This document shows positions 3,017 through 11,004 of a stretch of 64,000 bases of DNA, one piece after another. Positions within the stretch are counted from its first letter, which is position 1; each line of letters opens with the position of its first letter. Source of the stretch: Pseudomonadota bacterium (GTDB lineage: Bacteria > Pseudomonadota > Gammaproteobacteria > Xanthomonadales > Xanthomonadaceae); NCBI GenBank assembly GCA_963205495.1, contig CAUJIN010000003.1, forward strand, positions 1 to 64,000, read 5' to 3'. Position numbers and translations under genes: made by a program. The notes below the pieces were generated by a model. It did no database searches and was not told the DNA's origin. It was given only the letters and a program-made list of their open reading frames with translations.

Positions 3017-3322
3017 ATGGATCTTGGTGATCGAATCCGACTGTTCTTCGTGTGGGTCATGTCGCGCCGCGAGCGCATCGGCTGGGTGCTGCTGGCGTGC
3101 GTGCTGACGGGCGCGGTGGCGCTGGTGAATCCGGCCAAGCTGCTGGTGGGAACGTGGCTGGGGGCGAAGATCATCGCTTCGGCACTGATCGGCGTGGCGC
3201 TCTTCCGCACCTGGGACGACCCGCGGGTGGAGGAGCTGGAAGGCATCGAGCGCGCGATGGCCTACACGAGGCGCGTGACGCTGATGGCTGCGGCCATCGT
3301 GGCGGCGGCGTTCGCTCCATGA
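3017..3322 (+). CDS. putative phage holin (small membrane protein)
   Basis: Hydrophobic segments, immediately upstream of the endolysin. Confidence 0.55.
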   Translation: MDLGDRIRLFFVWVMSRRERIGWVLLACVLTGAVALVNPAKLLVGTWLGAKIIASALIGVALFRTWDDPRVEELEGIERAMAYTRRVTLMAAAIVAAAFAP

Positions 3323-3999
3323 GCGGGCGTGAGGCGGGCTGCTACTGGTGCCGGCCGCTGATGGCGGCGCTGGCGCTGGTGTTGTTTCTCCTGGCGCTGA
3401 GCTGGAGCGCCCGCTCGGGCGCGGCCGAGTCTGCCGCGGTCCGCATTCCGGATGTGCCGCCGCTGTACCGGCTGATGGTGGAGCGCGAGGCGGCGGACGT
3501 GTGGGGCATCCAGGCACCGGCGGCGCGCATCGCCGCGCAGATCCACGCCGAGTCGCTGTGGAACCCGAAGGCCGCCAGCAAGTATGCGCACGGCATAGCG
3601 CAGTTCACCCCGCCCACGGCGGAATGGATCGCAAGGAAGTTTCCGGAAAAGCTGGCGGGCTTTGACCCGTGGGACCCGGCACAGGCGGTGCGCGCGATGG
3701 TGGTCTACGACCACTGGCTGACGCGGCGCAACCCCGGCGCGACGGAGTGTGACACCTGGGCGTTCGGGCTGTCGGCCTACAACGGCGGCGAAGGCTGGCT
3801 GCGGCGCGATCAGCGCCGCGCGCAGGCGACGGGCGCAGATGCGGCCACATGGTTCGGCCAAGTGGCCGAGCACAGCGGCCGGGCCGGCTGGGCGATGCGC
3901 GAAAACCGCGGCTACGTGAGCCGCATCCTGCTGCAGCTGGAGCCGGCTTATGCGGCAGCGGGGTGGTCGGGCGTGCCTGTGTGCGAGGCGACGCCATGA
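3319..3999 (+). CDS. phage lytic transglycosylase (endolysin)
   Basis: IHAESLWNPKAASKYAHGIAQFTPPTAEWIA...AYNGGEGWLRR: SLT motifs, N-terminal hydrophobic segment. Confidence 0.85.
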   Translation: MSGREAGCYWCRPLMAALALVLFLLALSWSARSGAAESAAVRIPDVPPLYRLMVEREAADVWGIQAPAARIAAQIHAESLWNPKAASKYAHGIAQFTPPTAEWIARKFPEKLAGFDPWDPAQAVRAMVVYDHWLTRRNPGATECDTWAFGLSAYNGGEGWLRRDQRRAQATGADAATWFGQVAEHSGRAGWAMRENRGYVSRILLQLEPAYAAAGWSGVPVCEATP

Positions 4000-7361: not shown

Positions 7362-8914
7362 TGGCCATTTCACGCATTCTCGGCCCCGACGGCCGACCCA
7401 TCGAGCTGGACGTGCTGGGCGAGGAAATCTCCGCGCCTTCGCTCACCGGCATTCGCCAGGTGTGGCACGGCACGGTGGCGAGCAATCTGACCCCGCAGCG
7501 GCTGGCCAACATTCTGGAGAACGCCGCCCAAGGCGACGCGCACGACTACCTGACCCTGGCCGAGGAGATGGAAGAGCGCGACATGCACTACGCCAGCGTG
7601 CTGGGCACGCGCAAGCTGTCGCTGGTGGGGCTGGATATTCGGGTGGAGGCGGCTACGGATTCGGCCGAGGATGTGCGTCGTGCGGACGCGGTGCGCGATC
7701 TGGCGGGATCGGCCGAGTTCGGCGAGATGGTGGCGCACCTGGTGGATGCCCTGGGCAAGGGCTATGCCGTCTCGGAGATCGTCTGGGACCGTTCGGGCCG
7801 CGAGTGGCGACCCGGCTTCGAGGAGCGCGACCCGCGATTCTTCCGATTCGACCAGGACACCGGGCGCGAGCTGCGCCTGCTGGATGCCGCAGACCCGGCG
7901 AACGGGCTTGTGCTGCCGGCTTTCAAGTTCGTGGTGCACCGTCCACGCATCCGCTCGGGCCTGCCGATCCGTGGCGGGCTGGCGCGCCTGGCGGCACCGG
8001 CCTACATGTGCAAGGCGTGGACGTGGCGCGACTGGATGGCGTTCGCCGACATCTACGGCCTGCCGATGCGCGTGGGCCAGTACGGCCCCAACGCCACCAA
8101 GGACGACATCGGCAAGCTGATGGCGGCGGTGGCCAACCTGGGCAGCGATGCGGCCGCGGTGATGCCCGAGAGCGTGCGCATCCAGTTCGAGCAGGCGGCC
8201 AGCGTGGCCGGCGCGGGCGAGTTCTTCGACAAGCTGGCAGCGTTCTGGGACAAGCAGATTTCCAAGGGCGTGCTGGGCCAGACCATGACCGCCGACGACG
8301 GCGCGTCGCTGAGCCAGGCGCAGGTGCACCAGACCGTGCGCCTGGACATCATGACCGCCGATGCGCGGGCGCTGTCCAACACCCTGCAGCGCCAGCTGGT
8401 GGAGCCCTTCTGCGCACTCAACTTCGGCCCCGGCGACGCCCCGAGACTCACCGTGGTGGTGCCCAAGCCCGACAACACCTCGGCCCTGGTGGATGCCCTG
8501 CAAAAGCTGGTGCCGTTCGGGCTTTCAGTAGAGCAATCGGTGATCCGCGATCGCCTGGGTCTACCGGACCCGGACGCAGATTCGGACGTGCTCAGGCCGC
8601 CGACCGCCGCCCCGTTGCCGGCGTTGAATCGGGCATTGAATGTGGAGGCAGCGCCAGCTCCGAACAGCGCACCCAACTACCTCGATGCTCTGGCCGAAAC
8701 GATGGCCGAGCGCGCTGGTGGTGCGGTGGACGACTGGGCTGAACGCATTCTCGCTGAATCTGCACAGGCGGTCGGCTATGACGATCTTCTGGGCCGCCTT
8801 TCGATGCTGCTGACCGAGCTGCCGCTGGACGAGCTTGGCCAGGCGTTGGCGGACGGTTTCAGCGCGGCCGACCTGGCGGGTCAGTCGGATATGCAGGACG
8901 AAGGCCGTGCCTGA
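7361..8914 (+). CDS. DUF935 family phage portal protein (Mu gp29-like)
   Basis: MAISRILGPDGRPIELDVLGEEISAPSLTGIRQVWHGTVASNLTPQRLANIL. Confidence 0.9.
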   Translation: MAISRILGPDGRPIELDVLGEEISAPSLTGIRQVWHGTVASNLTPQRLANILENAAQGDAHDYLTLAEEMEERDMHYASVLGTRKLSLVGLDIRVEAATDSAEDVRRADAVRDLAGSAEFGEMVAHLVDALGKGYAVSEIVWDRSGREWRPGFEERDPRFFRFDQDTGRELRLLDAADPANGLVLPAFKFVVHRPRIRSGLPIRGGLARLAAPAYMCKAWTWRDWMAFADIYGLPMRVGQYGPNATKDDIGKLMAAVANLGSDAAAVMPESVRIQFEQAASVAGAGEFFDKLAAFWDKQISKGVLGQTMTADDGASLSQAQVHQTVRLDIMTADARALSNTLQRQLVEPFCALNFGPGDAPRLTVVVPKPDNTSALVDALQKLVPFGLSVEQSVIRDRLGLPDPDADSDVLRPPTAAPLPALNRALNVEAAPAPNSAPNYLDALAETMAERAGGAVDDWAERILAESAQAVGYDDLLGRLSMLLTELPLDELGQALADGFSAADLAGQSDMQDEGRA

Positions 8915-10151
8915 TTTCCGCATCGCCTATCGCCCGTTCCCGCAGCAGCAGGCGTATTTCCGCCGCAAGGTGAACATGCCCAGCGCGCGCTGGGACGACC
9001 TCATGCACGGCGAACACGCCCACGGCTTCATGGCGGCGGGCGTGGCGCGCATGGATGTACTCGAAGACATCCGCCAAGCGGTGCAGGACGCCATCGATCG
9101 GGGCGAAGGCTTCCCCGCGTTCCAGGCGCGGATGCGGAACATCATTGCGGACAAGGGATGGATCGGTGGCGCGGGAGACGAGTCCGAGGCCCGTCGCGCC
9201 TGGCGCATGCGCATGATCTACCAGACCAACCTGCGCACCAGCTACATGGCCGGCCGCTGGGAGGATCTGCAGAAGTTCCCCTATCTGCGCTACCAGCACA
9301 ACACCATCAACAACCCGCGCCACGAACATCAGGCATGGGATGGCCTGGTGCTGGCCAGCGACGACCTCTGGTGGGACACGCACTATCCACCCAACGGCTG
9401 GGGCTGCCGCTGCACCGTGACTGGCGTCGGCAAGGGCCGCATGCGCATGCTGGGCAAGGATGGCCCCGATCCCGTGCCCGATCCGAGCGATGGCGACCCG
9501 CCACCGGAGTGGGCGTATCACCCGGGCAAGGCGGCGCGATCGCTGCCGGCCGCCGAATCGTTCGGCCGCAAGGTGATGGCGCTGCCGCCGGAGTGGCGCA
9601 AGGCGGCATTGGATGATGCGCAGAACAGGCGCGTGGAGTGGTTTGGCGACTGGCCGGCCTTCGTGGATACGGTTCGCTCCGAGATTGCCGCCGGCGCAGC
9701 TCGCCCACAGGGTGCGGCTACGCCGCTGGGCTTCATCCCCTCGGGCGCGGTGGGCGTTCTGGCTACGGGGCGAGCCTTGAACGGGCGCACCTTCGCGCCG
9801 GTACTGCCGCAGACTGCGTTGATCGCCACCACCGACCGCGCCGTCTATCACGCTCTGCGCGATGCCAAGTTCGATGACCGGCCGCAGCTGCGCGAGCTGT
9901 TCGCCGAGGCCATGCGGACCGCGCCGGAATGGGTGGCGAGGGCGGATGCGGTGCTGTGGGATCCCGAACTGTCTGCGCTGCTCTTCGCGCGCAAGGCGGC
10001 CGACGGGCGCTATCTGACGCTTGTTGCCCGGGTCGACATGCTGGAGCAGCGTTCGAAGCAGCCGATTACTGCGGCGTGGGTGCGAACCCTGGAGATCTAT
10101 GGGTCGCAAGCCTTGGCGCGGTTTTCACTTGTCAGTGGCGCGTTGGAGTAG
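8907..10151 (+). CDS. phage head morphogenesis protein, Mu gpF-like (GTG start)
   Basis: YRPFPQQQAYFRRKV...TNLRTSYMAGRWEDLQKFPYLRYQHNTINNPRHEHQAWDGL...PPNGWGCRC. Confidence 0.9.
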   Translation: MPDFRIAYRPFPQQQAYFRRKVNMPSARWDDLMHGEHAHGFMAAGVARMDVLEDIRQAVQDAIDRGEGFPAFQARMRNIIADKGWIGGAGDESEARRAWRMRMIYQTNLRTSYMAGRWEDLQKFPYLRYQHNTINNPRHEHQAWDGLVLASDDLWWDTHYPPNGWGCRCTVTGVGKGRMRMLGKDGPDPVPDPSDGDPPPEWAYHPGKAARSLPAAESFGRKVMALPPEWRKAALDDAQNRRVEWFGDWPAFVDTVRSEIAAGAARPQGAATPLGFIPSGAVGVLATGRALNGRTFAPVLPQTALIATTDRAVYHALRDAKFDDRPQLRELFAEAMRTAPEWVARADAVLWDPELSALLFARKAADGRYLTLVARVDMLEQRSKQPITAAWVRTLEIYGSQALARFSLVSGALE

Positions 10152-10152
10152 T

Positions 10153-10233
10153 CGGGCTGGGGTGGGATTCGAACCCACGATACGCAGCGCCTGCTGGCGC
10201 CTCACCTCTACCTGATCGGCGTCCTACCAGCCC
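10153..10233 (-). other. tRNA-like element (7-bp acceptor stem plus canonical T-arm, non-canonical D/anticodon region)
   Basis: Minus strand: GGGCTGG-TA-...-GTGGG TTCGAAT CCCAC-C-CCAGCCC-G; central GCGCC AGCA GGCGC hairpin. Confidence 0.5.
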
Positions 10234-10249
10234 GTGAGGAAATCCTACC

Positions 10250-10756
10250 ATGACCGACACCGTCACCATCACGCTGGACGATGCCGCCGTACAAGCGGCA
10301 TTCGACCGCCTCACCCGGCTCGGGCGCGATACCAGCCCGATGATGGCCGAGATCGCCGAGCACTTGCTGGAGAGCACGCAGCGCCGCTTCGATTCCGGCA
10401 CCGGCCCGGATGGCGTGCCCTGGGTTCCGCTGGAGGATGGCAGCGGCCGCACGCCGCTGCGGGTCAGCGGCACACTGCGCGATCAGATTTTTCCGAGCCA
10501 CGGATCAGACTTCGCCCAGATCGCGGCTACGACAAAGTACGCGCGCGCGCACCAGGAGGGCACGCCGCCCTATGTCATCCTTCCGGTCAAGGGGAAGGCG
10601 CTGTCTTTCCTCGGGCCGGGTGGCGACAGGATTGCCCGGCGCAAGGTCAACCACCCGGGCCTGCCGCCGCGCCCTTTCCTCGGCCTGTCCGACCAAGACC
10701 GCGCAGACATCGAGCAGATCGCCGGCGCATACTTGGAAGAGGCCGCAGGCGGATGA
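10250..10756 (+). CDS. phage virion morphogenesis protein, Mu gpG-like
   Basis: DRLTRLGRDTSPMMAEIAEHLLESTQRRFDSGTGPDGVPWVPLEDGSGRTPLRVSGTLRDQI. Confidence 0.85.
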   Translation: MTDTVTITLDDAAVQAAFDRLTRLGRDTSPMMAEIAEHLLESTQRRFDSGTGPDGVPWVPLEDGSGRTPLRVSGTLRDQIFPSHGSDFAQIAATTKYARAHQEGTPPYVILPVKGKALSFLGPGGDRIARRKVNHPGLPPRPFLGLSDQDRADIEQIAGAYLEEAAGG

Positions 10757-10814
10757 CGTAGGCCACCGACCCCGCCTGCGTCGTTGTTGCGCCTCCCGCA
10801 ATAAAGTTGCAGTT

Positions 10815-10853
10815 TTTGTTCGTCGTTGTTCGCCTGTGTTCGGCTTTGTTCCC
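10815..10853. repeat. Four TTGTTC/GTGTTC repeats phased at 10 bp; candidate Mu-like prophage right-end transposase sites
   Basis: TTGTTC at 10816 and 10826, GTGTTC at 10836, TTGTTC at 10846; related GTCGTTGTTGCGCC at 10779. Confidence 0.45.
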
Positions 10854-11004
10854 CATTTATCGCGCTCACAGCCCTTCATTTATAAAGCTCGGGGACACGC
10901 AGCGCATCCGGGCCGCGAGGCGCGCACCCCTGACCATCGGCCCATTCCCGCCGGCAGGACGGCGCTTACACTCCGAGGCCCGTTTTATCCTCCAGGCAAT
11001 CCCG

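Follow-up and report, generated by a model that had tools for sequence, protein, structure and literature searches.

The window, as we call the whole 64,000-nt stretch of DNA that was analyzed, begins with the left part of a Mu-like prophage (1-10.9 kb), which encodes a Gam-like protein (563-1087), a late transcription activator (2468-2878), an endolysin (3052-3999), the small and large terminase subunits, and Portal_Mu. On the plus strand, a gene for a Mu F-like minor head protein (8835-10151; PF04233, E = 7.8e-17) lies upstream of a gene for a Mu G-like virion morphogenesis protein (10250-10756; PF05069, E = 1.3e-24; phrog_26), and our analysis confirmed the gpF stop at 10151, the gpG start at 10250, and the 98-nt gap between them. 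Because similarity to phage relatives stops near 10,897 and the next reading frame encodes a peptidase S46, the prophage looks truncated to the right of G; no Mu I or T gene was seen past G (10757-10897 and beyond). Several TTGTTCG-like direct repeats are found downstream of G, at about 10810-10865, within a stretch common to the related loci L154 and L155.

The F-G gap contains, on the minus strand, an 82-nt tRNA-like element (10153-10234, with its 5' end at 10234) that reads CGGGCTGG-TAGGA-CGCC-GATCAGGTAGA-GGTG-AG-GCGCC-AGCA-GGCGC-TGCGTATC-GTGGG-TTCGAAT-CCCAC-C-CCAGCCCG and whose structure was checked letter by letter. The acceptor-like helix is formed by a 5' strand, CGGGCTGG (10227-10234), and a 3' strand, CCAGCCCG (10153-10160). 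As the original prediction held, this stem is perfectly paired and the antisense element nearly fills the gap, but the helix has 8 bp rather than 7, with C10234 also pairing with G10153, and the element extends one nucleotide beyond the proposed boundary at 10233. The textbook T-arm, GTGGG-TTCGAAT-CCCAC (10162-10178), was found as described, and the extra nucleotide noted after the T-stem is an unpaired C at 10161, the junction with the acceptor helix. In the middle region, the GCGCC-AGCA-GGCGC hairpin (10187-10200), with its tetraloop, is also present and takes the place of an anticodon arm, but a 4-bp D-like arm had been overlooked (10203-10221; CGCC and GGTG around the loop GATCAGGTAGA, which holds a conserved GG). 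No anticodon-type arm, sought as a 7-nt loop with U33 on a 5-bp stem, is possible in the window element, and no CCA end is encoded in it.

Loci that were retrieved from collections of viruses, metagenomes, and genomes through their similarity in gpG hold about 20 divergent relatives at the same site, the Mu-like F/G junction, and always antisense to F and G; the opposite orientation is kept even in L049, where F and G are on the minus strand and the element is on the plus strand. Closer elements of the same plan lie directly before G in L154-L158, and much more distant ones were found in L005, L007, L014, L019, L024, L049/L058, L064, L084, L110, L112, L160, L166, and L399. The least certain member is L399, in which the acceptor and T-arm are clear and the middle is unclear, and the element of L016 (433-516) sits between two successive F-like genes, not between F and G. 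When both strands of 1.2 Mb of related loci were scanned for the stems and T-loop with G-U pairs allowed, 15 rows were returned: 14 copies antisense at F/G-type junctions, representing 13 distinct elements because L049 and L058 are one element fetched in two loci, and 1 unrelated match. The window element scores 105 bits in cmsearch by construction, being part of the model, and a 5-element model recovered 10 further elements (E < 0.02), each of which lies antisense at such a junction and outscores the window's genuine tRNA-Asn (20.4 bits) on that model. Real tRNAs of other genomes reach 36-42 bits with the 5-sequence model, and weaker members were therefore recognized by place and anatomy rather than by score. 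In 351 genomes of the order, the window-type model found, besides the window, only matches of 42 bits or less, mostly tRNA-sized, among which weak members are not separable from tRNAs; the window's subtype of the element is thus rare. A D-loop/T-loop DNA pattern applied to viral contigs yielded no further recognizable F-G element, the listed matches being ordinary phage tRNAs or unrelated. Several named phages in which F and G overlap or abut as annotated do not have the element (Mu, BcepMu, JBD5, JBD25, PM105, Thiobacimonas phage P1, Chromohalobacter phage YPCBV-1, and Komp_PAO1_1), nor do Klebsiella ST405-OXA48phi1.1 and an E. coli Mu-like prophage, in which these genes likewise overlap or abut. 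The distribution is sparse and gives no clue to a host factor. We found no description of such an element in the open-licence full-text literature.

Comparison of these relatives strongly supports both the predicted fold and the conserved site of the element. First, among 15 aligned elements, compensatory (double) changes were found at 16 of 20 pairs and 96.6% of pair cells formed standard pairs, in an alignment that was fitted to the model's structure and leans towards it. By helix, covariation was seen at 7 of 8 acceptor pairs, 3 of 4 D-stem pairs, all 3 modelled pairs of the third arm, and 3 of 5 T-stem pairs, the other 2 being invariant. The value corresponding to 16 double changes was 9.9 in shuffles and 3-6 in slid alignments, and nothing in 500 shuffles or in the slid controls came close to the observed covariation. 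The original prediction that a structured, tRNA-like RNA lies antisense at the F-G junction, which looked to covariation for its test, is thus borne out by stems that are kept in the F-G gaps of relatives through compensating changes. Second, RNAalifold recovered the same helices from the 15-element alignment, with compensatory changes at 17 of 21 pairs, and a hand alignment of 19 elements, verified against the loci, agrees with the model-based fold. Third, the T-loop and D-loop motifs are constant while the stems vary: the T-loop fits TTCRANY in 18 of 20 elements (L005 and L084 deviate, with ATCGAAG), and GG is present in the D-like loop of all hand-aligned elements. Finally, in nearly all relatives the third arm ends in a short loop, of the UUCG, UCCG, GCAA, or CCAA type, and not in an anticodon loop; a single marginal alternative, in L129, was the only U33 anticodon-type arm among 19 elements. 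Nearly all relatives also have 1-2 unpaired nucleotides between the T-stem and acceptor, although a gap-free reading of this junction is possible as well in L019 and L399. Folding energy alone is modest for the window element (z = -2.4), though in our judgment the comparative evidence excludes a chance origin of the fold.

The pattern of non-Watson-Crick pairs strongly suggests that the minus strand is the functional RNA. In this orientation, the 19 hand-aligned elements contain 14 G-U cells and 1 A-C cell, a count drawn from stems that were partly chosen with G-U pairs allowed, and a mirror search was run as a control. Allowing G-U pairs in this search added nine rows and approximately tripled the antisense junction elements, whereas allowing A-C pairs added none there. 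Since the stems accept G-U pairs but not A-C mismatches, the RNA that folds would be the one antisense to F and G.

Promoter-like signals lie where such an RNA would begin. In the window, a -10-like hexamer, TAGGAT (10247-10242, minus strand), with an extended -10 TGn element (together 10242-10250), overlaps the G start and places the predicted transcription start at about 10234-10235. Of 20 elements, 19 have a -10-like hexamer that precedes the acceptor by 5-11 nt, including TATAAT in L014 and L024 and TATACT in L160 and L399; the exception, L016, has TACTAT further upstream. The combined p for this box against upstream windows of the same loci is about 1e-21, a value that treats loci as independent and is optimistic, as close relatives share ancestry. 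Given this spacing, the transcription start is expected close to the first base of the acceptor, and from the -10 box we infer that the element is transcribed. A strict promoter scan of the window found no paired -35/-10, which would make the promoter there an extended -10 one. No intrinsic terminator was found in the window; L019 and L155 have one downstream of the element, and the L155 terminator for the antisense RNA is embedded, on the minus strand, in the last F codons. Across 95 junctions, a -10 box occurs at the G start in 45 of 59 gapped and 2 of 36 abutting cases, which are not independent because most come from one gpG lineage that holds both states. A crude test of this association with one vote per single-linkage cluster was not significant (p = 0.09), a weakening that arises from the clustering, which puts most of the gapped and abutting loci belonging to one lineage into a single cluster.

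The element has the elbow features of a decoding tRNA, a TTCRANY T-loop and a D-loop GG, and is not a decoding tRNA. ARAGORN made no call at the F-G gap, its sole match in the window being a tRNA-Asn elsewhere, and among the relatives it called three (L014, L024, and L049/L058), with anticodon assignments that differ among them. No Rfam family matched the element at the gathering threshold, and the Rfam tRNA model gave no match there up to E = 10. The only match of the tmRNA model (RF00023) to the window element is an 18-nt T-arm fragment, with no tag reading frame, and the tRNA-Sec model (RF01852) does not match it; the best relative with the latter, L019, scores 27.6 bits (below the gathering score of 47), and no other relative matches. 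The host tRNA-Ser(UGA) is 93% identical to the element over 28 nt, a similarity confined to the T-arm and 3' acceptor, and we do not accept descent from this tRNA.

L154 and L155 are about 90% identical to the window in DNA across G and the promoter region and strongly divergent in the element and the 3' end of F. A mosaic breakpoint relative to these loci lies at the border of element and promoter (10233-10239 in the window). Because L154 and L155 share G and the promoter but not the element, element cassettes have probably been exchanged at the F-G junction with the plan kept.

The same junction has other occupants. A second antisense structured RNA, which is not tRNA-like, is seen on the minus strand of the F-G gap in L017, L020, L055, L079-L082, and L167; the L017/L079 type has a gap of about 141 nt with a conserved CACGGGCC and hairpins, in which 14 of 34 pairs covary. 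In L028, L030, L138, L177, and L178, putative small-RNA genes that have a TATACT or TATAAT box lie antisense just upstream of G, and most of them carry a canonical intrinsic terminator on the antisense strand; in L028, L030, L138, and L178 the box and the strong antisense terminator outline a small RNA of about 80-100 nt. The minus strand of the F-G region in L058, L060, L061, and L062 shares a motif, CGTCC-GG-CTCATAC-CC-..-GGACG, whose 7-nt loop (CTCATAC or CTCAAAC) resembles an anticodon loop. Rfam gave no match for those other-occupant loci that were tested. Where F and G abut, the slot is absent. Read most simply, the junction between F and G serves some of the Mu-like phages as a slot into which antisense RNA genes insert.

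We conclude that the element is probably a real RNA that has so far not been described. The account we prefer, at a probability of about 0.6, is that the phage carries here an independently promoted gene for a small RNA, which is probably active in the prophage and whose product mimics a tRNA without its anticodon and binds a host protein that handles tRNA. This separate gene in the F-G gap, on the strand opposite the head operon, would be transcribed from a sigma-70-type -10 element that lies over the gpG start and fires antisense. The transcript would start with the first base of the acceptor or one adjacent to it, and the RNA would therefore need little or no 5' processing. It would adopt an L-like tRNA shape, with the acceptor and T-stem stacked and an elbow formed by the D-loop and T-loop; because a stable short-loop hairpin replaces the anticodon arm, it could not decode. 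The RNA would act in trans, engaging a host protein that recognizes the tRNA elbow and acceptor. We infer expression in lysogeny, with the RNA made from the prophage as for other phage morons, and the protein target of the mimic is conjecture. A trans-acting mimic is the explanation that most economically accounts for an elbow of T-loop and D-loop being kept where there is no anticodon, and among the alternatives originally put forward the tRNA-mimic option is favored.

Cis tuning of gpF and gpG, another of those alternatives, stands as a rival, which we regard as unlikely but deserving of weight. Here, the minus-strand RNA or its mere transcription would lower the output of F or G, either through base pairing with the mRNA between these genes or through transcriptional interference, and the tRNA-like fold would serve mainly for stability. 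The promoter does overlap the G start, and the presence of unrelated antisense structured RNAs in the same slot could mean that the place is kept rather than the identity of the RNA. However, the strand evidence and dedicated promoter indicate an RNA product, many Mu-like phages have abutting F and G genes and manage without the element, and conservation of the tRNA motifs in the T-loop and D-loop would be unexplained. We consider it quite improbable that the fold is mainly a processing or 3'-end module that stops or trims an antisense transcript without a target: some relatives (L154, L024, L005) do have a U-rich stretch after the acceptor, but most members lack this tract, and neither a D-arm nor a precise elbow would be needed for such a role. 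Slightly poorer still are the prospects of a degenerate tRNA cargo, in which a host or phage tRNA was captured in the gap and is decaying. The acceptor, T-arm, and D-loop are tRNA-like, and the 28-nt match to host tRNA-Ser(UGA) fits such an origin, but covariation of the acceptor, D, third-arm, and T helices, including an arm not found in tRNA, largely refutes it; moreover, a short-loop hairpin consistently stands where the anticodon arm would be, this plan and the extra junction base recur in divergent phages, and the Rfam tRNA model has no match. Least probable of all is a sense-strand F-G mRNA structure for processing or translation control seen in mirror image: the operon mRNA necessarily holds the complement and can fold it, but the G-U/A-C asymmetry, the T-loop consensus, and a promoter-like box facing the element on the minus strand indicate the other strand.

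A broader proposal, which we offer tentatively and consider possible at rather long odds, is that Mu-like phages generally use the F-G junction as a slot for independently promoted antisense structured RNAs. One type of cassette would be a dedicated tRNA mimic, lacking an anticodon, that sequesters or inhibits a host factor acting on tRNA, such as an enzyme of tRNA processing or a defence or toxin that targets tRNA. If the tRNA-mimic account is true, then a non-decoding, stand-alone, tRNA-shaped RNA is kept by selection at one site in diverse Mu-like phages, which would give phage biology a further RNA family and a direct handle on what phages gain from imitating tRNA. Antisense RNA genes overlooked by annotation pipelines may have a hot spot in a seemingly silent gap of a well-studied phage operon.

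The element resembles several known systems and is distinct from each. Like canonical tRNA (RF00005), it has an acceptor/T-stem stack, a TTCRANY T-loop, and a D-loop GG, but it lacks an anticodon arm, has a 5-nt link before the D-arm and 1-2 unpaired nucleotides after the T-stem, and in the window encodes no CCA. It shares an 8-bp acceptor and 5-bp T-stem with tRNA-Sec (RF01852), again without the anticodon arm. The tRNA-like domain of tmRNA (RF00023) is also anticodon-less and has a T-arm, whereas the element is free-standing at about 80 nt, with its own D-stem and no tag reading frame. The RNAs mascRNA and menRNA and the tRNA-like structures of plant viruses are, like the element, tRNA-shaped and non-decoding; unlike them, the element is phage-encoded, has its own predicted promoter, lies antisense inside a head operon, and does not form the 3' end of a longer RNA. 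Phage morons (PMC4378225) are extra genes that have been inserted among conserved phage genes and that bring a promoter of their own and, in some cases, a terminator. The element is moron-like in its promoter-like box, recognized from sequence, and in its insertion between genes that abut in other Mu-like phages, but differs from morons in that it encodes an RNA rather than a protein.
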